Of a DNA stretch of 33,640 bases, positions 5,793 to 18,385 are shown in pieces (the stretch's first letter is position 1; every line of letters starts with the position of its first letter). Under the pieces are notes generated by a model. The model saw only the letters and a program-made list of their open reading frames with translations. It was not told where the DNA came from and made no database searches. The position numbers were made by a program, and so were the translations under genes. The DNA comes from Thermoleophilia bacterium (lineage in GTDB: Bacteria > Actinomycetota > Thermoleophilia > Gaiellales > Gaiellaceae): the NCBI GenBank assembly GCA_025925195.1, contig JAICLU010000009.1, positions 1 to 33,640 of the forward strand, read 5' to 3'.

Positions 5793-6980
5793 ATGGCGAC
5801 GACCACGAAGCCGACGGCGCTCGATCCGCGGGACTTCCTCGCGATCGACGCGCTGCTCGACGACGAGGAGCGCGCGATCCGCGACACCGTCCGGCAGTTC
5901 GTGCGCGACCGCATCCTGCCGGAGGTCGGCGAGTGGTTCGAGCAGGCGATCCTGCCCCGCGAGCTCGTACAGGAGATCGGCAAGCTCGGGCTCTTCGGCA
6001 TGCACCTCGAGGGCTACGGCCTGCCGGGCGCGAGCGCCGTCGCCTACGGGCTGACGTGCATGGAGCTCGAGGCCGGTGACTCCGGCGTGCGCTCACTCGT
6101 GTCGGTGCAGGGGTCGCTCGCGATGTTCTCGATCTGGAAGTGGGGCTCGGAGGAGCAGAAGCAGCGCTGGCTGCCGGGCATGCACACGGGCGAGCTGATC
6201 GGCTGCTTCGGCCTGACCGAGCCGGACGCCGGCTCCGACCCCGGCTCCATGCGGACGACCGCGCGCCGCGACGGCTCCGACTGGGTGTTGAACGGCTCGA
6301 AGATGTGGATCACGAACGGCACGATCGCCGACGTCGCCACCGTGTGGGCGCGCACGGAGGACGGCCAGATCAACGGCTTCCTCGTCGAGCGTGGGATGCC
6401 GGGGTTCGAGGCGCCGGAGATGCACCACAAGATCTCGCTGCGGGCCTCCGTCACGTCGGAGCTCGTGCTGCACGACGTTCGCGTGCCGGAGGAGAACCGG
6501 TTCCCCGAGGTCTCGTCGCTGCGCGGGCCCCTGTCGTGTCTCAACGAGGCGCGGTACGGAATCGTCTGGGGTGCCGTCGGCGCCGGACGCGCCTGCTACG
6601 AGTCGGCGCTCGAGTACGCGAAGGAGCGAATCGTCTTCGGCAAGCCGATCGCCGGCTACCAGCTGACGCAGCAGAAGCTCGCCGAGATGGCGCTCGAGAT
6701 CAACCGGGCGACACTCGTCGCGCTGCACATCGGCCGCATGAAGGACGACGGCACGTTGCTCCCGCAACACGTCTCGATGGGAAAGATGGGCAACGTCCGC
6801 GGCGCGATCGAGGTCGCGCGCAGCGCCCGCACGATCCTCGGCGGCAACGGCATCACGCTCGAGTACCCGGTCATCCGGCACGCGAACAACCTCGAGTCGG
6901 TGCTGACGTACGAGGGCACGCACGAGGTGCACACGCTCGTCGTCGGCCAGGCGATCACCGGCGAGAACGCGTTCCGCTAG
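5793..6980 (+). CDS. gcdH: Glutaryl-CoA dehydrogenase
   Basis: 395 residues. FAD-dependent oxidation and decarboxylation of glutaryl-CoA to crotonyl-CoA in lysine/tryptophan or aromatic catabolism. The protein follows the family along its full length: GELIGCFGLTEPDAGSDP, LNGSKMWITNG, KISLRASVTSELVL, RYGIVWGAVGA, RTILGGNGITLEYPVIRH and TYEGTHEVH, in which E374 is the catalytic base. R100 and S104 in SGVRSLVS fit the Arg and Ser that human GCDH uses to hold the gamma-carboxylate (R94, S98), which separates decarboxylating GCDH from other acyl-CoA dehydrogenases. The ATG at 5793 follows the esterase stop by 11 bp, so co-transcription is possible. Its stop codon shares a CTAG with the convergent SET gene. 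Confidence 0.93.
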   Translation: MATTTKPTALDPRDFLAIDALLDDEERAIRDTVRQFVRDRILPEVGEWFEQAILPRELVQEIGKLGLFGMHLEGYGLPGASAVAYGLTCMELEAGDSGVRSLVSVQGSLAMFSIWKWGSEEQKQRWLPGMHTGELIGCFGLTEPDAGSDPGSMRTTARRDGSDWVLNGSKMWITNGTIADVATVWARTEDGQINGFLVERGMPGFEAPEMHHKISLRASVTSELVLHDVRVPEENRFPEVSSLRGPLSCLNEARYGIVWGAVGAGRACYESALEYAKERIVFGKPIAGYQLTQQKLAEMALEINRATLVALHIGRMKDDGTLLPQHVSMGKMGNVRGAIEVARSARTILGGNGITLEYPVIRHANNLESVLTYEGTHEVHTLVVGQAITGENAFR

Positions 6981-7357
6981 CGCGGCCGCAGCGTCCGGTC
7001 GTTCCAGTAGGCCGGGCCGTACGTGTGCGTCAGCTCCTCGCCGGCGGCGATGTCGCGCAGCGCGACGAACTCGATCAGCAGGCGCCCGGCGGTGCGGTGG
7101 TAGACGTTCGGCTTCGCCGAATGGTTGTAGAGCATCCCGTAGCCGAGGACGAGGAGCACCTTGCCGGGCTGCCGCGCGCCGAAGACGTAGTCGCGCAACA
7201 CGCCGTCGACGCCGTCGTCGTCCAGCAGGACGGTCGGGCACACCTCGACGACGTCTCCCTCGCGGAAGTCCTCCAGCGCGAACACGCCGCGTCCACGGCG
7301 CCCGCGCCCGATCTCGATCCCCGGCCCGCGGGAGAAGCGCTGCGGATTGAAGCTCAG
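6977..7357 (-). CDS. SET-domain protein (putative protein-lysine methyltransferase)
   Basis: About 126 residues making up a bare SET domain: GRGRRGRGVFALEDF at the N-terminus, DDDGVDGVLRDYVF, LVLGYGMLYNHSAKPNV (the NHS motif that contributes to the SAM site and pseudoknot), FVALRDIAAGEELTHTYG and the C-terminal YW. Such stand-alone bacterial SET proteins are usually assumed to methylate lysine side chains; the substrate is unknown. The start is uncertain: no ATG, GTG or TTG in frame keeps the whole SET N-terminus, and the best candidate is a CTG at 7357 overlapping the stop of the upstream gene as CTGA, matching the GTGA couplings seen throughout the window. The gene is an operon partner of the enolase-superfamily gene. 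Confidence 0.72.
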   Translation of the reverse strand: MSFNPQRFSRGPGIEIGRGRRGRGVFALEDFREGDVVEVCPTVLLDDDGVDGVLRDYVFGARQPGKVLLVLGYGMLYNHSAKPNVYHRTAGRLLIEFVALRDIAAGEELTHTYGPAYWNDRTLRPR

Positions 7358-8367
7358 AAGCCGGGCCCCTCGAACGCCGGCAACGGGCTGGTGGGGAGCC
7401 CGGGCCGCGGCGGGCCGTCGTTGTACTCCGAGGGCGCGACGTCGTTCGGGCCGTCCGGGTAGAAGACGCTCGCGAGCTTCTGGATCTGGCGGCGGCCGGC
7501 GCCGAGCTCGAACTGGCCGCCGCCGTACATGCGGATCCCCTTCTCGTCGCAGCGCTCGATGCACTCGAGCAGGGCCTCGGTCGTCCCGAACCGCGACGGC
7601 TTGATGTTGAGCCAGCGGGGCTCGACCGGGAGCTTGCCGACGTCGGACCAGGAATGGATCGGCGCGTCGAAGCTGAGCTGTTCCTCCGCCCCCTCGAGCG
7701 CCTCGCGGCAGCCGTCCTCGAGCCACGCGTCCTCGAGGACCGCGTCCGGCAGTGCCTCCTTGATGCGCCGGTAGAGCTCGGGATCGGGCGCAAGGTCGAC
7801 CGACGTGCCGCGGTAGTACGCCTTCAGGTCGACGACGCGCACCCGGTCGGTGGCGGCGAGCCGTGCGAGCAGCCCGGCGTCCCAGGTGTCGTCCGCGTCG
7901 AGCTTGAACTCGAGGTCGGGATTCAGCTCGCGGTACGGCGCGATGTCGGCGCGCGTCGACGCGACGAACCGCACCGGCGAGTACTCGCGACCGAGCGCCT
8001 CGGCGAACGACTGTCCCGACTGCTGTAGCGCGAGGTCGAGCGCCGCGCTCTCGAACGCCCAGCGCCTGTAGTCGCGTGACGCCTCCATCCCGGGCGCCGC
8101 GGCCTCCCACAGGTCGACGTCGTCGAGGCGGCGCGAGTAGTCGTGCAGCGTCCAGGTGCCGGCCAGCATCTCGTGCGCAGGAAAGTCGTCGTGGTCGGAA
8201 GCCGTGTACGTCACGTCCTCGCCGCGCCCCAGCTCATCGCCGCCGTGGAGCAGCACCGTCGTCGTGACGCGCGTGAACTCGGGCGAGACGACGAGCTCGC
8301 GACGCTGGACCGAGTAGTCGTCGATGCGGACCTGCAGGTCTGCGAGCGACTGCCAGAGCGAGGGCAT
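7354..8367 (-). CDS. Enolase-superfamily (mandelate racemase-like) protein of unknown substrate
   Basis: 337 residues with the two-part architecture of the enolase superfamily: an N-terminal capping domain (about 1-125) and a TIM-like barrel. Candidate active-site strands are FKLDADDTW, VVDLKAYYRG, VLEDAWLED (metal-ligand acid), FDAPIHSW, LNIKPSRFGTTEALLE (base lysine in the usual NIKPSR position) and MYGGGQFELGAGR near the C-terminus. The family abstracts a proton alpha to a carboxylate using a divalent metal; the exact reaction cannot be named. The ATG at 8367 lies only 11 bp from the divergent GFA gene start. The gene leads an operon with the SET-domain gene, an unusual pairing. Confidence 0.8.
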   Translation of the reverse strand: MPSLWQSLADLQVRIDDYSVQRRELVVSPEFTRVTTTVLLHGGDELGRGEDVTYTASDHDDFPAHEMLAGTWTLHDYSRRLDDVDLWEAAAPGMEASRDYRRWAFESAALDLALQQSGQSFAEALGREYSPVRFVASTRADIAPYRELNPDLEFKLDADDTWDAGLLARLAATDRVRVVDLKAYYRGTSVDLAPDPELYRRIKEALPDAVLEDAWLEDGCREALEGAEEQLSFDAPIHSWSDVGKLPVEPRWLNIKPSRFGTTEALLECIERCDEKGIRMYGGGQFELGAGRRQIQKLASVFYPDGPNDVAPSEYNDGPPRPGLPTSPLPAFEGPGF

Positions 8368-8378
8368 ACTCCGATCCT

Positions 8379-8756
8379 ATGCGCGAGCGGACCGGAGGAT
8401 GCCTGTGCGGCGCGGTGCGCTACGTCGTCCGCGGCGAGCCGTTCCACGTCGGCCGCTGCCACTGCGCCGACTGCCGCAAGCGCTCTGGGAGCACGTACAC
8501 GATCTACGGCCAGTGGCCGCGCGACGCATTCGAGCTCGAGGGCGAGCCCGCGAGCTTCCGCTCCGACCACTTCTGCCCGACGTGCGGCTCGCACCTCGGC
8601 CTCCTCGACGAGGCCGAAGGCGTCGAGCTCTCCCTCGGCACCCTCGACGAGGCGCCGTTCGAGCTCGTCCCCGAGGCCGAGCTCTGGATCAAGCGGCGCG
8701 AGCCCTGGCTGCCCGCCGTCGAGGGCGCGGCACAGCACGAGGAGAACCGGCATTGA
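8379..8756 (+). CDS. GFA-family zinc protein (glutathione-dependent formaldehyde-activating enzyme/CENP-V fold)
   Basis: 125 residues with the complete cysteine pattern of the family: GGCLCGAVRY at the N-terminus, CHCADCRKRSG in the middle and FCPTCGSHL toward the C-terminus, which together bind zinc. The family name comes from a GSH-dependent formaldehyde-activating enzyme, but most members, especially in organisms lacking glutathione, have no proven activity, so no reaction is assigned here. The ATG at 8379 is the only start that keeps the first Cys pair near residue 8-10. The stop codon overlaps the TTG start of the next gene (TTGA), indicating a three-gene + strand operon ending in the dehydratase. 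Confidence 0.85.
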   Translation: MRERTGGCLCGAVRYVVRGEPFHVGRCHCADCRKRSGSTYTIYGQWPRDAFELEGEPASFRSDHFCPTCGSHLGLLDEAEGVELSLGTLDEAPFELVPEAELWIKRREPWLPAVEGAAQHEENRH

Positions 8757-9181
8757 TCGCCGCGCTGCCGCCCGCGGGCACGTTCGCCGCCGGCTCCTCG
8801 CTCGGCGGCGTCCGTCTCGGCGCGACCGCTGCCGAGGTCAGGCGCCGCTTCGGCTCGGACTACGGTGTGTGCCGGGGCTGCGCGACGACGACGTGGTACT
8901 TCACGTACCGCCGCTTCGACGACCGCGGCGTCGGGGTCGAGCTGACCGGCGGCCGCGTCTCGGCGGTCTACACGCTCTGGCGGCCGCCCGGCTGGCGCGG
9001 GCCGCACGGCCTTCGCTTCGGCGCGTCGTCGGGAGCGGTGACGGCCGCGACCGGTGCCGTCGTTCCGTTCTCGTGCTCGGGCTACACCGCTCTCGTCGAC
9101 CGGACGAGCGTCTATTACATCGTCGACGAGAAGCTCTGGGGCTTCGGGCTGATCCGCAGGGGACGCTCGCCGTGCCGGTGA
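8753..9181 (+). CDS. Hypothetical protein with two short internal repeats
   Basis: 142 residues, not recognised as a named family. It contains two related segments: GGVRLGATAAEVRRRFG near residue 20 and GLRFGASSGAVTAATG near residue 85, each followed by a Cys-containing beta-like stretch (CRGCATTTWYF; FSCSGYTALV). This resembles the doubled small alpha/beta repeat found in BamE/SmpA-like and other envelope proteins, but similarity is weak. The TTG start at 8753 overlaps the GFA stop; the N-terminus LIAALPPAGTFAAGSS is only mildly hydrophobic and not a convincing signal peptide. The 3' end overlaps the start of the dehydratase gene by 10 bp, so translation of the three genes is probably coupled. 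Confidence 0.68.
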   Translation: MIAALPPAGTFAAGSSLGGVRLGATAAEVRRRFGSDYGVCRGCATTTWYFTYRRFDDRGVGVELTGGRVSAVYTLWRPPGWRGPHGLRFGASSGAVTAATGAVVPFSCSGYTALVDRTSVYYIVDEKLWGFGLIRRGRSPCR

Positions 9182-10119
9182 TCGAGCTCGCCGACGTCCA
9201 GGCGGCGGCGCGGCGGATCGACGGCGTCGCCCACCGCACGCCCGTGCTGAGATCGCGCACGCTCGGCGAAGGCGTCTTCCTGAAAGCCGAGTGCTTCCAG
9301 CGCACCGGTGCGTTCAAGTTCCGCGGCGCGTACAACAAGCTCGCGTCGCTCCCGGAAGGGCGGGACGTGATCGCGTTCTCGTCCGGCAACCATGCGCAGG
9401 CGGTCGCGCTCGCTGCACGGCTGCGCGGCGTCCGCGCGACGATCGTCATGCCGGCGGACGCGCCGGCCGCGAAGCTCGCCGCGACGCGCGGCTACGGGGC
9501 CGAGATCGTGACGTACGACCGCTGGACGGAGAACCGCGAGGAGATCGGCGCGCGGCTCGCCGCCGAGCGCGGCCTCGAGCTCGTGAAGCCCTATGACGAC
9601 CCGCTGATCATGGCCGGCCAGGGAACGGTCGCGCTCGAGCTGCTCGACGAGGTGGCCGAGCTCGACGCGATCGTCGTGCCGGTCAGCGGCGGCGGGCTGA
9701 TCGCGGGCTGCGCGACAGTGGTCAAGGCGCTGCGGCCGTCCTGCCGCGTGATCGGGGTCGAGCCGGCTGCCGGCGACGACACCGCTCGGTCGCTCGCGGC
9801 GGGTGAGCGCGTGCGCGTCGAGATCCCCCGCACGATCGCCGACGGGCTCGGGGCTCCCGAGCCGGGCGAGCTCACCTTCGAGGTGAACCGGCGGCTCGTC
9901 GACGAGGTCGTGACCGTCGAGGACGACGAGCTGGTCGAGGCAATGGCGTTTCTCTTCGACCGGCTCAAGGTCGTCGTCGAGCCGAGCGGCGCGGCCGGCG
10001 TCGCCGCGCTCCGGCAGGGACGCATCCCGGCCGGCGGCCGGGTCGGCATCGTCCTCTCAGGCGGAAACGTCGGCGCCGGGCGCTTCGCGGAGCTCGTGGC
10101 CGGCCGCAACGAGGCCTGA
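9172..10119 (+). CDS. PLP-dependent threonine/serine dehydratase-family enzyme
   Basis: 315 residues of a fold-type II PLP enzyme. FQRTGAFKFRGA carries the Schiff-base lysine (K49), SSGNHAQAVA binds substrate carboxylate, and the SGGGLIAG loop binds the PLP phosphate; the terminal LSGGNVGAGRF holds the residue near the pyridine nitrogen. The likely reaction is deamination of L-threonine or L-serine to a 2-oxoacid. The length matches the short form without the C-terminal ACT-like domain of biosynthetic IlvA, so catabolic threonine ammonia-lyase or a serine/threonine racemase are the main options. The GTG at 9172 (after AGGGGACG) is preferred over the GTG at 9178 for its ribosome-binding site. 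Its 3' end overlaps the convergent TetR gene by 63 bp. Confidence 0.88.
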   Translation: MPVIELADVQAAARRIDGVAHRTPVLRSRTLGEGVFLKAECFQRTGAFKFRGAYNKLASLPEGRDVIAFSSGNHAQAVALAARLRGVRATIVMPADAPAAKLAATRGYGAEIVTYDRWTENREEIGARLAAERGLELVKPYDDPLIMAGQGTVALELLDEVAELDAIVVPVSGGGLIAGCATVVKALRPSCRVIGVEPAAGDDTARSLAAGERVRVEIPRTIADGLGAPEPGELTFEVNRRLVDEVVTVEDDELVEAMAFLFDRLKVVVEPSGAAGVAALRQGRIPAGGRVGIVLSGGNVGAGRFAELVAGRNEA

Positions 10120-10698
10120 CGAGAACGCGTCGACGACATGCCGCTCGGCCGCCGCGACCTCGTGCTCGCCGCCCGGCAGGCGTCCGAGCACCCAGCCGCT
10201 GATCAGCTCGTCGATGCCACCGTAGAAGACGATCGCGGCAAGCGCCGGATCGAGGTCGGCGCGTAGCTCGCCGCTCGACTGGCCGCTCTCGATCACGCGG
10301 CGGATCGCGCCGATCGGCTTCACGAGCTCGCCGACGTGCTCCTCGATCTCGGCCGTGCGGGCGATCTCCCTGATCACGACGCGGACGACGTCCGGCTCCT
10401 CCAGCCAGGTGCCGAGCAACGCACGGGTGATCGCGCGCAGGCGCTCGATCGCGCTCCCTTCCGAGGTCTCCGCGTCGTGCACCTGTTCGAGGACGTTCGT
10501 CCAGTGCTCGCGGAAGATCGTCTCGAGCACCTCGTCCTTCGACGAGAAGTAGTGGTAGAGCAGCCCGTGCGCGACGCCCGCCTCCTCGGCGATGTCGCCG
10601 ACACGCGAGGTGTGGAATCCCTTGCGCGCGAACACCCGCGCGGCGGCGTCGAGGATCAGACGCCGTTTCTCCTCCGCTGCGGTCGCGCGCTCGGCCAA
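10057..10698 (-). CDS. TetR-family transcriptional regulator
   Basis: 213 residues. N-terminal helix-turn-helix: RRLILDAAARVFARKGFH, VGDIAEEAGVAHGLLYHYFSSKDEVL, the classic TetR signature at residues ~12-60. The larger alpha-helical C-terminal part (AIERLRAITRALLGTWL, IEEHVGELVKPIGAIRRVIE) would bind a ligand and dimerise, in a style common to fatty-acid-degradation repressors. The TTG start at 10698 leaves 33 bp to the divergent CaiB/BaiF-type gene at 10732, so it probably controls itself and that gene. I did not find a copy of the left-edge palindrome in that gap. Its 3' end runs 63 bp into the convergent dehydratase gene. Confidence 0.9.
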   Translation of the reverse strand: MAERATAAEEKRRLILDAAARVFARKGFHTSRVGDIAEEAGVAHGLLYHYFSSKDEVLETIFREHWTNVLEQVHDAETSEGSAIERLRAITRALLGTWLEEPDVVRVVIREIARTAEIEEHVGELVKPIGAIRRVIESGQSSGELRADLDPALAAIVFYGGIDELISGWVLGRLPGGEHEVAAAERHVVDAFSSGLVAAGHELREAPGADVSA

Positions 10699-10731
10699 GG
10701 CCGACGCAGGGTAGTGCTAGGTTCGCGGCGG

Positions 10732-11685
10732 ATGCAAGGGGCGCCCCAACCGACGGCGCTGCGGGGGATTCTCGTGGTCGACCTGTCGCGCTACCTTCCG
10801 GGCGCTTTCGCGACGTCCGAGCTGCACCGGCTGGGGGCCCGCGTGGTCCGCGTCGAGCAGCCCGGCGGCGACCCGATGCGGCATACCGCCGCCGACTGGC
10901 ATGACGAGCTGAACGCGGGCAAGGAGTCGGTCGTCTGCGACCTGCCGGTCGAGGCAGAGTTCGCGCAGGCGCTGCTCGCGCGCGCCGACGTCGTCGTCGA
11001 GTCGTTCCGGCCCGGCGTCGCTGCGCGCCTGGGCGTCGGCCCCGACGACGCACCTGAGTCGTGCATCTACTGCTCGATCACCGGCTTCGGGCTCGGCGGC
11101 GAGCACGAGCAGCGCGCCGGCCACGACCTCAACTACCTCGGTTGGGCCGGCGTGCTCGAGCGAACCGCCCCGGCCCTCCCGCCCGTCCAGGCGGCCGACC
11201 TGGCCGCAGGGGCACTCGGCGCAGTCACGGAGATCCTCGCGGCCCTGCTCCGGCGCGAGCGCACCGGCGAGGGAGCGCGCGTCGCCGTCTCGATGACGCA
11301 CGGCTCGTATCCACTGGCGGCCCGCACGCCGGTGCTGACCGAAGGCTTCGCCTGCTACTCGATCTACGCGTGCGCCGATGGGCGCCACCTGACCGTCGCG
11401 GCGCTCGAACCGAAGTTCTTCACCCGGCTCTGCGAGCTGCTCGGCCGGCCGGAGCTCGCGCCGGCCCAGTACGACGACGACCAGGCGATGCTTCGCTCGG
11501 AGCTTGCCGCCGCCTTCTCACGGCAACCGCTGGCACACTGGCTCGGGTTGTTCCGGGGGGAAGACGTCTGCGTGGGGCCGGTCGCGACGCGCGCCGAGGC
11601 GGCGGAGTTTGCGCCGTTCGCGCGCGGTCGCGCGCCCGAGCTCGGCGAGCACACGGCGCAATGGCGCGAGGAGCTTGCTGCGTGA
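10732..11685 (+). CDS. Class III CoA-transferase / alpha-methylacyl-CoA racemase family (CaiB/BaiF)
   Basis: 317 residues. Family landmarks: VVDLSRYLPGAFAT at the N-terminus, GARVVRVEQPGGDP, LNAGKESVVCDL, ADVVVESFRPGVAARLGVG, then YCSITGFG and the AGHDLNYLGWAG stretch corresponding to the His-containing GHDINYL motif of alpha-methylacyl-CoA racemase, followed by a candidate acid in VQAADLAAGAL. The reaction is either CoA transfer between acids or racemisation at C2 of a branched acyl-CoA; the GHD..YL motif favours the racemase branch. At 317 residues it is shorter than the usual ~360. It overlaps the next gene as GTGA although the two products have no obvious shared pathway. Confidence 0.85.
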   Translation: MQGAPQPTALRGILVVDLSRYLPGAFATSELHRLGARVVRVEQPGGDPMRHTAADWHDELNAGKESVVCDLPVEAEFAQALLARADVVVESFRPGVAARLGVGPDDAPESCIYCSITGFGLGGEHEQRAGHDLNYLGWAGVLERTAPALPPVQAADLAAGALGAVTEILAALLRRERTGEGARVAVSMTHGSYPLAARTPVLTEGFACYSIYACADGRHLTVAALEPKFFTRLCELLGRPELAPAQYDDDQAMLRSELAAAFSRQPLAHWLGLFRGEDVCVGPVATRAEAAEFAPFARGRAPELGEHTAQWREELAA

Positions 11686-13130
11686 TCTACGCCGGCGGCA
11701 GCCACGCCGAGCCGCACGCGGCACGGCTGCTCGTCGCCGACCGCGGCGCGATCGTCGCGAACGCTCCCGACGCGTCGCGCTCGACGCTGATCGCCGACGC
11801 GCAGGACGCGGCGTACTCGCCCGACGGGACGTTCGTCGCATTCGCGCGCGACGGCGACCTGTGGCTCGCGAACTCCGACGGCAGCGGGCAGCGACGGCTC
11901 GCCACGACGCCGAACGTCGCCGAGTCGGGACCGAGCTGGCTCCCGGACGGGAGCGCGGTCGTGTACACAGCCGACGTCGGCGGCGCGCGTCAGATCCGCG
12001 TCATCCCGTTGCCGACCGGCATGTCGCGACGGATCGCGGCGAGCGGCGCCGAGGAGTATTCGGCGACGGTCTCCCGGCAGGGGCGGCTGGCCTTCGTCTC
12101 GACGCGCAACGGCACGCCGCAGATCTTCGTCGCGCAGCAGGACGGAACGGGAGCGGCGCAGTTCTCGGCCGAGGCGTATGCCGACGTCCACGACCTGGCG
12201 TGGTCGCCCGACGGAAAGCTCCTGGCCTATGACGCCGACCAGGGGGACGGGACGACCGCGATCGTGGTCGACGACGGCAGCGCGCAGCTGGTCGCCCCCG
12301 CCGGGACGCGGCCGGTGTGGGCGCCCGCAGGCGGGCGGATCGCCTTCGACGGCGGTGGCGGCTCGCTCGAGTCGATGGCCGCGGACGGAACAGACGTGCG
12401 GCAGCTCGGCTCGGGCTCGCCGCTCGACTGGCGGATCGTGCCGACCGGGAAGCCGCTCTTCCCGAACCTCGTGCAGCGGCCGCCGAGCGGGCTCGTCGTC
12501 GTCCCTGCCGCGCACCGGCACTGGCTGCTCGGCTTCACGTCGATGGTCGACAGCCGCGGGCCGGGCATCGTGTGGATCCACGGCAACCGCACGCCGGGCG
12601 CGCACGTCATGCAGGTGCGGCAGCTCATCCAGCTCGCCGGCGGCGGCACGCGCGTCGATCCGCCGTCCGGGGAGCTGCACTACGTCGTCGCGCCGCCGCA
12701 CTACCACTGGCACATGCTCGGGTTCGTGCACGCCGAGCTCCGCACCGCGGGCGACTTCGCGCTGCGCGTGCGCGACCACAAGAGCGGCTTCTGCATCGCC
12801 GACCATTACGGGACGGCGATCGGCATCCCGCACGGGCCGCCGCGGTTCCTCGGCAATTGCGCGCAATTCGATCCGCGCGCGCGGTTCGTCGAGGAGGGTG
12901 CGTCGGTCGGCTACACCGACCGCTACCCGGCGTTCTTCCACGGGCAGCAGCTCGACATCACGAAGCTCCCCGCCGGCCGCTACTGGCTCGTCCACCGCGC
13001 GAACCAGGACCTCCACCTGCGCGAGACGCGCTACGACGACAACGCCGCGTCGGTGCTCATCCAGCTCACGTGGCGCGCCGGAACGCCGCGCGTCACAACC
13101 CTCCGGACCTGTCTAAAAGAGCGCTGCTAG
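11682..13130 (+). CDS. PD40/TolB-type beta-propeller fused to a lysyl oxidase domain
   Basis: 482 residues. Residues ~35-255 contain repeated PD40 (WD40-like) blades: AAYSPDGTFVAFARDGDLWL, PSWLPDGSAVVYTAD, LAWSPDGKLLAYDAD and VWAPAGGRIAFDG. Residues ~265-470 match the copper amine oxidase domain of lysyl oxidases: the HxHxH copper site HYHWH (H340, H342, H344), K367 in DHKSGFC and Y415 in DRYPAFFHGQQLDIT, equivalent to the Lys and Tyr that form the lysine tyrosylquinone cofactor in animal LOX, with GRYWLVHRAN and a C-terminal YDDNAASV strand. It would oxidise primary amines to aldehydes. The GTG at 11682 gives no signal peptide, odd for a protein class that is normally secreted. Alternative: an in-frame ATG at 11661, also lacking a signal. 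Confidence 0.83.
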   Translation: MIYAGGSHAEPHAARLLVADRGAIVANAPDASRSTLIADAQDAAYSPDGTFVAFARDGDLWLANSDGSGQRRLATTPNVAESGPSWLPDGSAVVYTADVGGARQIRVIPLPTGMSRRIAASGAEEYSATVSRQGRLAFVSTRNGTPQIFVAQQDGTGAAQFSAEAYADVHDLAWSPDGKLLAYDADQGDGTTAIVVDDGSAQLVAPAGTRPVWAPAGGRIAFDGGGGSLESMAADGTDVRQLGSGSPLDWRIVPTGKPLFPNLVQRPPSGLVVVPAAHRHWLLGFTSMVDSRGPGIVWIHGNRTPGAHVMQVRQLIQLAGGGTRVDPPSGELHYVVAPPHYHWHMLGFVHAELRTAGDFALRVRDHKSGFCIADHYGTAIGIPHGPPRFLGNCAQFDPRARFVEEGASVGYTDRYPAFFHGQQLDITKLPAGRYWLVHRANQDLHLRETRYDDNAASVLIQLTWRAGTPRVTTLRTCLKERC

Positions 13131-13308: not shown

Positions 13309-14181
13309 CTAGGTCACGTCCTTGTCCTCGTCGCGGCCGATGCGGCCGAGGGCCCGCTGGAACTCGGCGGGGATGATCCACACCTTGTTCGAGTCGCCGG
13401 CCGCGATCTGCGGCAACGCCTGCACGTACTGGTAGGCGAGCAGCTGCGGGTCCGGCTTGCCCTCGTGGATCGCCGTGAACACCGTGTCGATCGCCTTCGC
13501 CTGCCCCTCCGCCTGCAGGATCGTCGCCTCCCGCTGGCCCTGCGCGCGCAGCACGGCCGCCTGCTTCTCACCCTCGGCCGTCAGGATCGCCGCCTGCTTC
13601 TGCCCCTCCGCCTGCAGGATCGCGGCCCGCTTCTCGCGGTCGGCGCGCATCTGCTTCTCCATCGACTCCTGGATCGACGCGGGCGGATCGATCGCCTTCA
13701 GCTCGACGCGGTTGACGCGGATACCCCACTTGCCGGTCGCCTCGTCGAGCACGCCGCGCAGCGTCGTGTTGATGTGGTCGCGCGACGTCAGCGTCTTCTC
13801 GAGCGCGATGCCGCCGATCACGTTGCGCAGCGTCGTCACGGTGAGCTGCTCGATCGCCTGCAGGTAGTTCGCGATCTCGTAGCTCGCCGCCTTCGCGTCC
13901 GTCACCTGGAAGTAGATGACCGTGTCGATGTTGACCACGAGGTTGTCCTCGGTGATGACGGGCTGGGGCGGGAACGAGACGACCTGCTCACGCAGGTCGA
14001 TCAGCGGCCGCAGCCGGTCGATGAATGGGACGATGAGCGCCATGCCGGGCGTCAGTGTCCGGTTGTACCGGCCGAGCCGCTCGACGACGCGCGCCCGCGC
14101 CTGCGGGACGATGCGGATCGAGCGCGCGAGCACCGTCAGCACGAGCACCGCCACGATGAGAATCACGATCAGACCGGCCAC
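13309..14181 (-). CDS. SPFH/Band-7 membrane scaffold protein (stomatin/paraslipin type)
   Basis: 290 residues: one N-terminal membrane helix (IVILIVAVLVLTVLA), the SPFH domain (VPQARARVVERLGRY to about residue 190, with PGMALIVPFIDR and VNRVELKAIDPP), then a helical region of consecutive 11-residue units of the type AAILQAEGQKQ, AAILTAEGEKQ, AAVLRAQGQRE, ATILQAEGQAK. Such proteins oligomerise on membranes to organise microdomains or guard proteases. The GTG at 14181 has GGAGCAGG upstream. It lies 11 bp downstream of an NfeD-like gene; SPFH-NfeD pairing is a well-known operon type (QmcA/YbbK, FloT-NfeD). Confidence 0.92.
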   Translation of the reverse strand: MAGLIVILIVAVLVLTVLARSIRIVPQARARVVERLGRYNRTLTPGMALIVPFIDRLRPLIDLREQVVSFPPQPVITEDNLVVNIDTVIYFQVTDAKAASYEIANYLQAIEQLTVTTLRNVIGGIALEKTLTSRDHINTTLRGVLDEATGKWGIRVNRVELKAIDPPASIQESMEKQMRADREKRAAILQAEGQKQAAILTAEGEKQAAVLRAQGQREATILQAEGQAKAIDTVFTAIHEGKPDPQLLAYQYVQALPQIAAGDSNKVWIIPAEFQRALGRIGRDEDKDVT

Positions 14182-14623: not shown

Positions 14624-15283
14624 TCAGATCCTAAGGTCGTCGAGCGTCTCTATGCGGGGTCGGAAATCCGGACGGAGCCCGAGCCGGTCGATGAGCACCG
14701 CCTGCATGCCCGCGGCCAGGGCGCCCTCGATGTCGTCCTCGACGGTGTCGCCGACCATCAGCGCCTCGTGCGGCTGCACCTCCAGCAGCCCGAGCACCGC
14801 GCGGAAGATCGACGCGTGAGGCTTCGTCTTCCCGTGATGGAACGAACTGATGCCCGCGTCGATGTCGAGCGCATGGTGCCGCGCGAACTCGCGGACGTCG
14901 CGCGCGGAATTCGAGACGAGGCCGATCCTGATGCCGCGCTCGCGCAACGTCTGCAGCACCGGAGCGGTGTCCTCGTACAATTCGAAGTTCTCGTGGCGCG
15001 CCCACCGGCTCGTGATCTCGACCGCACACGCACGCGAGGCAGGCTGCCTCCCGCCCATGCCGATGACGATGCGCTCCGTGAACGCGATCCAGATCTCCTC
15101 GTCATGGTCGAAATCGGGATGCCGCTGCAGGTCGACGAACGCGGCATCGCGCGCCGGCTCGTACAGCGCGGCGTCGAGCGCCAGGCCGCAGCGCGCGCCG
15201 GCCCGCACGTAGCCCTCGGGCCCGAGCTCGGGGCCCGGCCGCGCGAGCGTGAAGTCGACATCGAAGAGAACGGCGCGGATCAC
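14624..15283 (-). CDS. HAD-superfamily hydrolase
   Basis: 219 residues with all four HAD motifs: DVDFTL (catalytic Asp pair, motif I, residues ~8-13), LVSNS (motif II), the lysine in GKTKPHASIF (motif III) and VGDTVEDDIEGA (motif IV). The roughly 100-residue helical insert after motif I is a class I cap. It is likely a phosphatase acting on a small phosphorylated metabolite; the substrate cannot be named. The GTG start overlaps the kinase stop in a GTGA quartet, suggesting coupling of a kinase and a phosphatase, although no shared substrate is known. Confidence 0.88.
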   Translation of the reverse strand: MIRAVLFDVDFTLARPGPELGPEGYVRAGARCGLALDAALYEPARDAAFVDLQRHPDFDHDEEIWIAFTERIVIGMGGRQPASRACAVEITSRWARHENFELYEDTAPVLQTLRERGIRIGLVSNSARDVREFARHHALDIDAGISSFHHGKTKPHASIFRAVLGLLEVQPHEALMVGDTVEDDIEGALAAGMQAVLIDRLGLRPDFRPRIETLDDLRI

Positions 15284-16020
15284 GAGAGCCACTCCAGCAC
15301 GGCGCCGTGCGACGGCAGTGTCGCGCCTTCCGACCACGCCGTCGTCTGCACGATCGTCCACAGCCGCGCCCGCTCGCGGTCGAGCCCGAGGTCGGCGCAC
15401 AGCCGGTCGAGCCGGTAGAGCGCCTGCCGCCGCGTGTGCCCGAGCTCGCCGGACCGCACGATCGGGGCCGCCTGAAACTCCCGCTCGGCCGCCAGAGGCT
15501 TGGGATCGATCACGAGCCACGGCTCCCGCTGCGCGGCCAGGACGTTGTCGCCGTGCAGATCCTGGTTGCACAGCACGAGCTCGCCCTGCGTCCCGGCGAG
15601 CTCCCGCGCGAGCGAAAGCCGTTCGCCCGCCAGCTCGCCGCTCTCGTCCCAGGCATCGATCTCCTCGCTGATCCCACGGAAGCCGTCGGCGCGCGTCCAG
15701 AGGCGCGGCAGCAGCTCGGCGAGCACGTCCATCGCAGCCGCGGTCTCGAGACGAGAGAGCGGCGTGCCCGGCTCGCAGCGCTCGAGCAGCATCGCGCTCC
15801 GCTCGTCGTCGCGTTCGAGCAGCCGGACGGCGCCGTCGCCGTCCCAGCGCTCGAGCGCGTCCGGCTCCTGCACCGCTTCCCGGTGGGGCAGTCCGAGCTT
15901 CAGGACGGCAGGGCTCCCGTCACTGCGCTCCACCTGGAGCACGCGGCCGCCGGCGCCCGACGGGTACTCGGGGCCGCGCGTCAACTGCCAGCGCGCCAGC
16001 AGGTCGTCGAGGTCCGGCAC
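15280..16020 (-). CDS. Aminoglycoside/hydroxyurea phosphotransferase-like kinase (APH_6_hur type)
   Basis: 246 residues. An APH/choline-kinase fold with VLKLGLPHREA (ATP-binding lysine), AMLLERCEPGTPL, the catalytic loop LCNQDLHGDNVLAA and the metal-binding segment VIDPKPLAAEREF, matching the family of streptomycin 6-kinase and hydroxyurea phosphotransferase. In soil actinobacteria such genes may give antibiotic resistance or act in ordinary metabolism; the sequence does not decide. The GTG at 16020 follows GGAA and gives an N-terminus (VPDLDDLLARW) typical of the family. First gene of the leftward operon, with tRNA-Pro 84 bp upstream on the other strand. Confidence 0.83.
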   Translation of the reverse strand: MPDLDDLLARWQLTRGPEYPSGAGGRVLQVERSDGSPAVLKLGLPHREAVQEPDALERWDGDGAVRLLERDDERSAMLLERCEPGTPLSRLETAAAMDVLAELLPRLWTRADGFRGISEEIDAWDESGELAGERLSLARELAGTQGELVLCNQDLHGDNVLAAQREPWLVIDPKPLAAEREFQAAPIVRSGELGHTRRQALYRLDRLCADLGLDRERARLWTIVQTTAWSEGATLPSHGAVLEWLS

Positions 16021-16103
16021 CTTCCGAGGATAGTGCGGAGTCCCGAGCAGATCCTCCGGGCACGCCGACGATCTCTGAGGCTCCGCTACCCTTCGGCGCT
16101 GTC

Positions 16104-16177
16104 CGGGGTGTGGCGCAGCCTGGTAGCGCGCTCCGTTCGGGTCGGAGAGGTCCCCAGTTCGAATCTGGGCACCCCGA
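16104..16177 (+). tRNA. tRNA-Pro (anticodon CGG)
   Basis: 74-nt cloverleaf: acceptor arms CGGGGTG (16104-16110) and CACCCCG (16170-16176) with discriminator A (16177), D-arm GCGC-AGCCTGGTA-GCGC, anticodon stem CTCCG/CGGAG around loop TTCGGGT (anticodon CGG, reading CCG) and T-arm CCCAG-TTCGAAT-CTGGG. CCA is not encoded. A TACCCT 12 bp upstream (16087-16092) could be its -10 box. Confidence 0.97.
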
Positions 16178-16186
16178 TGCTCTCGG

Positions 16187-16218
16187 GACTGTCGCCTGCA
16201 CTCGTGCAGGCGACAGTC
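16187..16218. terminator. Perfect 14-bp hairpin after tRNA-Pro
   Basis: GACTGTCGCCTGCA (16187-16200) pairs perfectly with TGCAGGCGACAGTC (16205-16218) around a CTCG tetraloop, 10 bp after the tRNA. No T-tract follows, so it is a terminator of the U-less type often proposed in actinobacteria, or a processing signal. It also sits 18 bp before the next gene start at 16237. Confidence 0.65.
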
Positions 16219-16236
16219 GTGCACTAGCGTGCGCCC

Positions 16237-17298
16237 GTGATTCGTGCCGCCCTCATTGCTGCCGCGGCGCTCGGCATCTCGGGCGGTCACGTCACCGCGG
16301 GCGGCGCCCCGGTGTTCCCGATCCTCGGCTACTACCAGTGCGGGGCCTCGGCCGCGCAGGCTGCCGCTGCCGGCATCGACTTCTTCGTCGAACAGCCTTA
16401 CACCGCCTGCTCGGCGCTTCGGCCGAACGACTTCGGGGACGATCCGCCGCCGCCCGGCGTCCGCGTGCTGAGCGACGACGACTCCATGGCCGGCGGCGGT
16501 GACGGCGGCTGGTACCTCCCGGACGAGCCTGACGGCGCCGCCCTGAGTGCCGCGCAGCTGCCCGCGCTGCCGCCGGCAGCCGAGACCGGGCGACTGCGCG
16601 TCGTCAACCTCTCGGAGCACTTCTACAGCGGCCAGGCGTCGATCCGTCCCGGCTACGACCCCGGCGAGTACTCGCGCTTCGCCGGCCTCGCCGACCTCGT
16701 CGGCTTCGACCTGTATCCGATCACGAAGTTCTGCGGCCGCATCTCGTTGCTCGACGTCTTCCGAGCGCAGCGTGAGCTGCGAACGCTGTACGCCGTCGGC
16801 AAGCCGACGTTCCAGTGGATCGAAACCGGCCCGATGACCGGCGAGTGCCCGACCATCCCCGTGACGCCCGCGATTGCGAACGCCGAAGCGTGGCTCGCCG
16901 TCGCGGGCGGAGCGGTCGGGATCGGCTGGTTCACGAGCAGCTGGACGAGCGGCTCATGGAACCGTTGGGACGTCAGCCCGGCGATGCTCGCGCGAATGAC
17001 GGCGACGGACGCGCAACTGCACGCGCTCGCGCCGGTGCTGACCGGCCCTCCGGCCGACGTCGTCGTGCCGTGGGACGGGACGGTTGCGGCGAGCACGCGC
17101 ACGAGCGGCGGCGCGCTCTACGTGATCGCCGTGAACGCGGGTGACCGGCCGACGACGATCCCGATGCGCCTCGACGGGCTGCGCGGACGAACCCTGACGG
17201 TGCTCGGCGAGCATCGGACGATCACGCCCGTCAAGCGTGTGTTCATCCGCGACTCGTTCGGCCCGTACCAGGTTCACCTCTATACGACGGCGCACTAA
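16237..17298 (+). CDS. Secreted TIM-barrel/glycoside-hydrolase-like protein
   Basis: 353 residues. Signal peptide at the N-terminus (AALIAAAALGISGGHVTAG). The mature part looks like a (beta/alpha)8 barrel of glycosidase type: FPILGYYQCG, AAGIDFFVEQPYT, LRVVNLSEHFYSG, ADLVGFDLYPITKFCG, PTFQWIETGPM (candidate acidic residue), AEAWLAVAGGAVGIGWFTSSW, and a C-terminal beta-sandwich-like tail (GALYVIAVNAGDRPTTIPM, ERRTI-like GEHRTITP) of the kind that follows GH barrels. No exact family is recognised and the catalytic pair is not certain, so the activity is left open. The GTG at 16237 gives the signal peptide. The 3' end overlaps the convergent Ig-repeat gene by 56 bp. Confidence 0.72.
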   Translation: MIRAALIAAAALGISGGHVTAGGAPVFPILGYYQCGASAAQAAAAGIDFFVEQPYTACSALRPNDFGDDPPPPGVRVLSDDDSMAGGGDGGWYLPDEPDGAALSAAQLPALPPAAETGRLRVVNLSEHFYSGQASIRPGYDPGEYSRFAGLADLVGFDLYPITKFCGRISLLDVFRAQRELRTLYAVGKPTFQWIETGPMTGECPTIPVTPAIANAEAWLAVAGGAVGIGWFTSSWTSGSWNRWDVSPAMLARMTATDAQLHALAPVLTGPPADVVVPWDGTVAASTRTSGGALYVIAVNAGDRPTTIPMRLDGLRGRTLTVLGEHRTITPVKRVFIRDSFGPYQVHLYTTAH

Positions 17299-18385
17299 TC
17301 GAGAGAGCTCCGTTGACGGTCGCGACGAGCGAATGCCCCTCGTCGTCGGCGGCGGGCACGTAGGTCGGCTTCGTGGCGCCGGCGATCGGGACGCAGAGCC
17401 GTCCGTTCGCATTGCAGCGCAGCCAGGCGTAGGTGAACGCTGCCGGTGCCGTCTTCCAGGCGCCGTTGTCGACCGTGAGCTTCGTCGTTCCCGAGACCTT
17501 CGGCTGCCCGGTCGAGACGGCCACGGCACTCGACGCTGCGATCGGCCCGACGGCCGGCAGGAACACCGGCACCGTCGCGACCGCATCGGTCGCCTTCAGC
17601 GTCAGCGCAACCGTCGCGCCGACGTCCTTCGTGCCGAGCCTGTACCCGGCGGCGGTCGCGCCGTGGATCGATGAGCAATGGGAGACCTGCGCGTCGCACC
17701 GATACCACTGGTAGGCGAAGGTCACGGCTCCGGATCCCGTCCAGGTTCCCGTCGCGACGCTCAGTCGCTGTCCCCGCTGCGCCGTGCCCGTGACCGCAGG
17801 TGGAACGGTCGCGACCGGGCCGCTCGCGGCAAGCACCGCCGCGGTCGTCGTCGAGAGCGCAGGCTGCGCCGTCGTCCCGGCGCTCGCGGTCACCCGCGCC
17901 TCGAGCGTGTGACCGACGTCGACGGCGGTCGGCGTGTACGCCGCCTGGGTCGCATCGGCGATCGAGATGCAGATGCGGCCGTTGCCGTTGCAGCGCAGCC
18001 AGTCGTACGTGTAGCCCTTCGGCGTCTTGCTCCAGGTTCCGTTGCCGACGGTGAGAGGCTTGCCGACGATCGCGTCGCCGGTGACCGTGGGCTGCACGGT
18101 CGAGACGAGCTTCGCGGCCGGCGCCGCGATCGGGCCGACCGCCGCCGCGTAGGAGGACGCCCCACCAGCAGGGTGCGCCGTCAACCCGAGCGTCTTGCCG
18201 ACGTCCTTCGCACCGAGCGTGTAGGACGCGCCCTTCGCGCCGTGCACGGACAGGCAGTGCGACGCGTCGGGCGCACAGCGGTACCACTGATACACCGTCC
18301 CCGGCGTCGACGGCACCGAGAGCCGCTGGCCCTGTTGCGCGCTACCGGTCACCACCAGGACGACCGCCGCGGCCAGCGCGACCAT
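17243..18385 (-). CDS. Secreted protein with four Ig-like repeats in A-B-A-B order
   Basis: 380 residues: a short N-terminal hydrophobic segment (MVALAAAVVLVVTGSA) and four ~85-residue repeats, each built on a W-[YL]-R-C-x6-C core followed by GATxxxYxxxxxDxG. Repeats 1 and 3 carry YQWYRC and LG(A/T)KDVG; repeats 2 and 4 carry Y(D/A)WLRCN(G/A)NGR and YTP/YVP, so the arrangement is A-B-A-B and suggests duplication of a two-repeat unit. Such repeats occur in large surface proteins of actinobacteria; no enzymatic domain is present. The ATG at 18385 is 12 bp after the maf stop. The 3' end overlaps the convergent glycosidase-like gene, and the last ~20 residues look unstructured. Confidence 0.75.
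   Translation of the reverse strand: MVALAAAVVLVVTGSAQQGQRLSVPSTPGTVYQWYRCAPDASHCLSVHGAKGASYTLGAKDVGKTLGLTAHPAGGASSYAAAVGPIAAPAAKLVSTVQPTVTGDAIVGKPLTVGNGTWSKTPKGYTYDWLRCNGNGRICISIADATQAAYTPTAVDVGHTLEARVTASAGTTAQPALSTTTAAVLAASGPVATVPPAVTGTAQRGQRLSVATGTWTGSGAVTFAYQWYRCDAQVSHCSSIHGATAAGYRLGTKDVGATVALTLKATDAVATVPVFLPAVGPIAASSAVAVSTGQPKVSGTTKLTVDNGAWKTAPAAFTYAWLRCNANGRLCVPIAGATKPTYVPAADDEGHSLVATVNGALSISAPSYRGEPGTGRTSRG

Follow-up and report, generated by a model that had tools for sequence, protein, structure and literature searches.

Lysyl oxidases (LOX), a group that includes the copper enzyme responsible for cross-linking collagen in humans, are usually confined to the outside of the cell, and we know of no function assigned to the bacterial members. 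Prokaryotic LOX mostly consist of the LOX domain alone, with or without a signal peptide, an export signal being usual in them and not a defining requirement; the same survey records three exceptions to the single-domain architecture in bacteria, whose domains are unnamed in its main text (Grau-Bove 2015, PMC4448552). The LOX of the archaeon Haloterrigena is an active amine oxidase of broad specificity (PMC6452851). In human LOXL2, a review names H626, H628 and H630 as the copper ligands and K653 and Y689 as the pair forming the lysine tyrosylquinone (LTQ) cofactor. Cys657 and Cys673 of LOXL2 are disulfide-bonded in the crystal structure (PMC9180022). Our searches of a literature library for LOX combined with PD40 repeats or a β-propeller found no such protein.

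The gene lies in the window, the whole stretch of 33,640 nucleotides that was analysed. An earlier note on this DNA had read it as a LOX domain fused to a PD40 propeller, and this is borne out by Pfam, with both domains over their cut-offs (Table 1).

Table 1. Features of the propeller-LOX locus, in window coordinates.
Feature	Position	Strand	Details and evidence
Propeller-lysyl oxidase gene	11682..13130	+	482 aa, GTG start; ORF and translation, Pfam PD40 and Lysyl_oxidase above cut-off
GAGGAG ribosome-binding-like site	11668..11673	+	8 nt before GTG 11682; sequence, start-codon scan
CoA-transferase family III ORF, upstream	10336..11685	+	Pfam 9.7e-62; true start uncertain; stop overlaps LOX start
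Band7/SPFH gene, convergent, downstream	13309..14181	-	Pfam 5.3e-41
Vestigial signal region if the start is ATG 11661	11661..11708	+	MARGACCVIYAGGSHA, then EP; L039 homology; hydrophobicity within background
TolB-like PD40 β-propeller, aa 10-250	11709..12431	+	Pfam PD40 4.3e-17, phmmer, AF2 model
Lysyl oxidase catalytic domain, aa 256-478	12447..13115	+	Pfam; LOXL2 5ze3 by profile
HYHWH, putative copper site H340/H342/H344	12699..12713	+	Aligned to LOXL2 H626/H628/H630; invariant in 35 LOX domains
K367, lysine of predicted LTQ cofactor	12780..12782	+	Aligned to LOXL2 K653; invariant in 35 LOX domains
Y415, tyrosine of predicted LTQ cofactor	12924..12926	+	Aligned to LOXL2 Y689; invariant in 35 LOX domains
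C371 (first codon) and C393 (last codon), LOXL2 Cys657-Cys673 disulfide positions	12792..12860	+	Profile alignment

The C-terminal half scores as a member of the Lysyl_oxidase family (PF01186; 2.4e-7, 31 bits against a gathering cut-off of 20.4). When 35 related LOX domains were combined in a profile and this was compared with solved structures, the sole structure matched was human LOXL2 (5ze3, at 2.1e-19). In this alignment, for which the LOXL2 chain was converted to protein numbering by an offset of 317 counted in this analysis, both the HxHxH copper site and the LTQ-forming Lys and Tyr of PF01186 are present. The residue numbers given earlier for the copper site and the Lys/Tyr pair proved correct, and the Tyr-to-Gln spacing, likewise described as preserved, is +7 in the window protein and in LOXL2. 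Because the catalytic residues are invariant in the 35 aligned LOX domains, the match is not a matter of chance. C371 and C393 are also invariant in these domains, and a conserved C-terminal cysteine pair is kept in the window protein as well. Unlike LOXL2, the window protein is bacterial, carries a propeller in front and no clear signal peptide, and lacks the SRCR domains and most of the other LOXL2 cysteines. Two AF2 models, one covering the entire protein and one the LOX domain by itself, gave a pLDDT of ~30-36 over the LOX half, a poor result that we attribute to an input of just three sequences. It would be very surprising if the domain were a non-catalytic binding fold merely resembling lysyl oxidase: the absence of most of the other LOXL2 cysteines would fit such a fold, as would the fact that the LOX identity of this subfamily is known from sequence alone, but all five catalytic residues are retained across the 35 domains and a LOX as remote as the archaeal one is an active amine oxidase (PMC6452851).

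The N-terminal half is a propeller of the TolB-type PD40 fold according to Pfam, phmmer and Foldseek, with approximately six blades by repeat count. It matches TolB at 2.8e-20 in phmmer, and residues 22-217 of the AF2 model (pLDDT ~75) match TolB at 1.2e-10 in Foldseek. It does not belong to the TolB equivalog family TIGR02800 (74.6 bits against a cut-off of 343.15). What it shares with TolB (PDB 6pnv, 2hqs) is the PD40 repeats, forming a propeller by sequence and model; in contrast to TolB, it has neither the TolB N-terminal domain nor a Tol-Pal context. By analogy with the TolB propeller, the role of this half is probably to present a ligand, and it is plausible that it binds the substrate. 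Established LOX chemistry is the basis on which we infer copper-dependent self-processing to LTQ and amine oxidation for the window protein. Copper bound by the three histidines would allow Y415 to be oxidized and linked to K367, yielding lysine tyrosylquinone, and the enzyme would then deaminate primary amines, either small ones or those of lysine side chains, to aldehydes, giving off ammonia and hydrogen peroxide, with a protein or cell-surface ligand held by the propeller.

The search for other propeller-LOX fusions that had been proposed was successful: 15 of the 103 genomes from the family to which the window belongs encode full-length proteins of this kind. In the window's genus, 3 of the 16 genomes examined carry the gene. 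Public MAG contigs account for two close relatives, and one of these contigs is labelled Thermoleophilia. Apart from the window, no full-length match was found among 396 genomes spread over the phylum; one long LOX frame in that set (G155) was considered and rejected as a fusion, since it consists of a signal and LOX only. LOX as such is common in the class (139 of 399 genomes), and the window's own genome, an assembly ~82% complete, holds no second LOX domain. The 15 propeller fusions group together as one clade in a tree built from 55 LOX domains (support 100/99, present in 100% of bootstrap trees). This clade is nested among single-domain LOX, and so the simplest reading is that the fusion arose a single time. 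An exported single-domain LOX ancestor would have acquired a TolB-like propeller of six blades on one occasion, inside a single bacterial family. The subfamily shares with the single-domain bacterial and archaeal LOX its catalytic domain, its prokaryotic setting and, in some members, the lack of a signal peptide, and differs from these mostly LOX-only proteins in its propeller (PMC4448552, PMC6452851).

Other Thermoleophilia have a different kind of multidomain LOX, distinct from the propeller fusions, in which LOX is followed by PKD, CBM_4_9 or Ig-like domains (L086:3-2468 (-), L089:2840-6001 (+), L088:905-3433 (+), L095:152-1885 (-)). Two of these, L086 and L089, resemble the propeller-LOX in joining bacterial LOX to extracellular-type binding modules, but their LOX domain is N-terminal and is joined to PKD, CBM_4_9 and Ig-like domains rather than to a propeller. 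A C-terminal LOX was also seen in frames of 583-682 residues in L082, L083, L084, L077 and L076; their N-terminal part matched no Pfam family, and their start codons are uncertain.

Two in-frame starts lie in the CoA-transferase tail HTxxWRxEL, both in the window and in the nearest of its relatives that are linked to a CoA-transferase. One is an xTG at the Trp codon; the other, also an xTG, is seven codons further on, at the stop codon. The second of these, GTG 11682, overlaps the TGA stop of the CoA-transferase ORF and has the better ribosome-binding site in a start-codon scan. The first, ATG 11661, lies at the same conserved Trp codon at which the signal peptide of the relative L039 begins. 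We rejected a longer reading of this frame, extended upstream through 208 open codons, as the extension is Arg-rich, out-of-frame CoA-transferase coding sequence, and L034 has a stop 24 codons upstream. A long, mostly open antisense frame, of a kind expected in GC-rich DNA, was also set aside; the domain matches and the conserved relatives all lie on the + strand.

Signals were judged by hydrophobicity and by comparison among relatives, with the soluble proteins of the window as background (99th percentile of the hydropathy measure, 1.84). From its Trp codon, L039 reads MARRARFLTAALLPVALAALAVAALGA, a textbook signal, and L036 and L038 have 14-residue hydrophobic cores from the same codon, although L036 would require a CTG start. 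The relatives L005/L036, L007/L038 and L008/L039 combine CoA-transferase coupling with a hydrophobic, signal-like leader from the conserved Trp codon. Hydrophobic N-termini at other positions are seen in seven further relatives, of which L037 lacks an obvious start codon. Within the window's genus, the core dwindles from VIAAYAAAAAI in L034 (11 hydrophobic residues) to GACCVIYA in the window and almost nothing in L035. Mean hydropathy over the best 14 residues reaches 1.99-2.61 in the other relatives; for L034 it is 1.24-1.44, for the window 0.94-1.19 and for L035 1.15. Most relatives exceed the 99th percentile of the background, the window and L035 do not, and L034 is intermediate. Neither GTG 11682 nor ATG 11661 gives a canonical signal peptide, the best 14-residue stretch being within the soluble-protein background. 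The export signal typical of LOX is therefore vestigial at most in the window and present in most relatives. The statement of the earlier note that no plausible start yields a signal holds for a working-looking one, but it missed ATG 11661, which opens a short vestige at the position of the L039 signal start. Three separate assemblies (the window, L034 and L035) show this absence, which represents a derived loss inside a single clade. By sequence comparison, the absent signal is a lineage-specific loss or near-loss of the Sec signal in one genus, and SHA, followed by EP, downstream of the window's Trp-codon start may be the remnant of an old cleavage site.

The protein could still be exported if ATG 11661 were the true start and GACCVIYAGG with SHA, then EP, acted as a weak Sec signal. 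We regard this as rather doubtful: the start coincides with that of the L039 signal, the n-region contains an Arg, SHA before EP is an AxA-like site and the disulfide cysteines are kept, but the hydrophobic core is ~8 residues long and within background, the ribosome-binding site favours GTG 11682, and the sister L035 has nearly no hydrophobic residues at that position. A truly cytoplasmic enzyme, in which the signal was lost, the oxidase came to act on an intracellular amine and the propeller holds an intracellular partner, is somewhat easier to credit and still falls short of an even chance. No usable signal is found at either window start or in L035, the three independent assemblies agree, and the catalytic domain remains under purifying selection; against this, the LOX disulfide cysteine positions and the conserved C-terminal cysteine pair are kept, signal-bearing relatives are likewise coupled to CoA-transferase, and a short hydrophobic start persists in L034. 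A cytoplasmic function of the propeller-LOX is possible. The more specific course, in which an exported LOX became a cytoplasmic, propeller-targeted copper amine oxidase within one genus by stepwise erosion of the signal, with its start pinned inside the CoA-transferase gene, can be offered only tentatively.

The gene context holds no clue to the substrate. The CoA-transferase gene precedes the propeller-LOX gene in 9 of 12 relatives, and the other 3 are without that neighbour. Because the signal-bearing relatives are coupled too, the coupling is a matter of inherited synteny and uninformative about an intracellular role, and we rejected the CoA-transferase as a guide to function. The Band7/SPFH gene is syntenic in 6 of the 12 relatives' contigs, and Band7, NfeD and HAD genes follow on the opposite strand in several of them; the Band7/SPFH gene, though a conserved neighbour, is probably functionally unrelated to the propeller-LOX gene. 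The earlier suggestion of an intracellular or non-classically exported target is a step that these data do not support: relatives coupled to the same CoA-transferase have signal-like leaders, the signal was lost in a single genus, and the protein has kept a pair of cysteines that is typical of exported folds.

Selection on the gene was estimated by pairwise NG86 dN/dS, in which dS is rough at such high GC. Among the window, L034 and L035, the LOX domain gave a dN/dS of 0.27-0.29 and the propeller one of 0.40-0.53; the signal-bearing pairs gave 0.18 in both domains (L043/L044) and 0.22 for LOX with 0.42 for the propeller (L041/L043). These values point to a LOX enzyme that is constrained, perhaps slightly relaxed, and not a pseudogene. 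A gene declining toward a pseudogene after signal loss would suit the propeller values when set against the pair L043/L044, and also the presence of the gene in so few genomes of the genus, but it is improbable given three intact frames, the full set of catalytic residues, the LOX dN/dS of ~0.28 and a LOX tree with no unusually long branches. The reading that we favour, and hold to be likely, is that the gene encodes a copper amine oxidase of the LOX type with the propeller as its targeting domain; the enzyme was exported ancestrally, and a single genus has lost all or nearly all of the Sec signal. With the signal eroded and the enzyme still selected, the outcome may be retention in the cytoplasm, poor export or another route. 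Both substrate targeting and relocation can be put to the test in a subfamily that couples its catalytic domain to a binding propeller and whose sister genes have gone successively further in losing the signal. Should the signal-less form indeed work in the cytoplasm, copper loading and quinone formation would take place inside a bacterial cell.

Four other genes of the window deserve mention. In this actinobacterium, an ORF at 6977-8110 (-) carries a SET domain (Pfam 7.4e-13); SET domains are protein-methyltransferase domains and are most familiar from eukaryotes. At 8143-10119 (+), a PLP-dependent threonine/serine dehydratase-like domain follows ~345 open-frame residues that match no Pfam family; L034 and L035 have a similar frame, and these residues may be either an extra domain or a sign of a later true start. 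The kinase at 15280-16620 (-) resembles APH(6) aminoglycoside/hydroxyurea phosphotransferases and scores well under resistance-gene cut-offs. Finally, the bacterial protein encoded at 17243-18385 (-) matches PF16709 (1.6e-19) and PF23197 (4.1e-18), Ig-like domains of the plant actin-binding SCAB and of AIR9.
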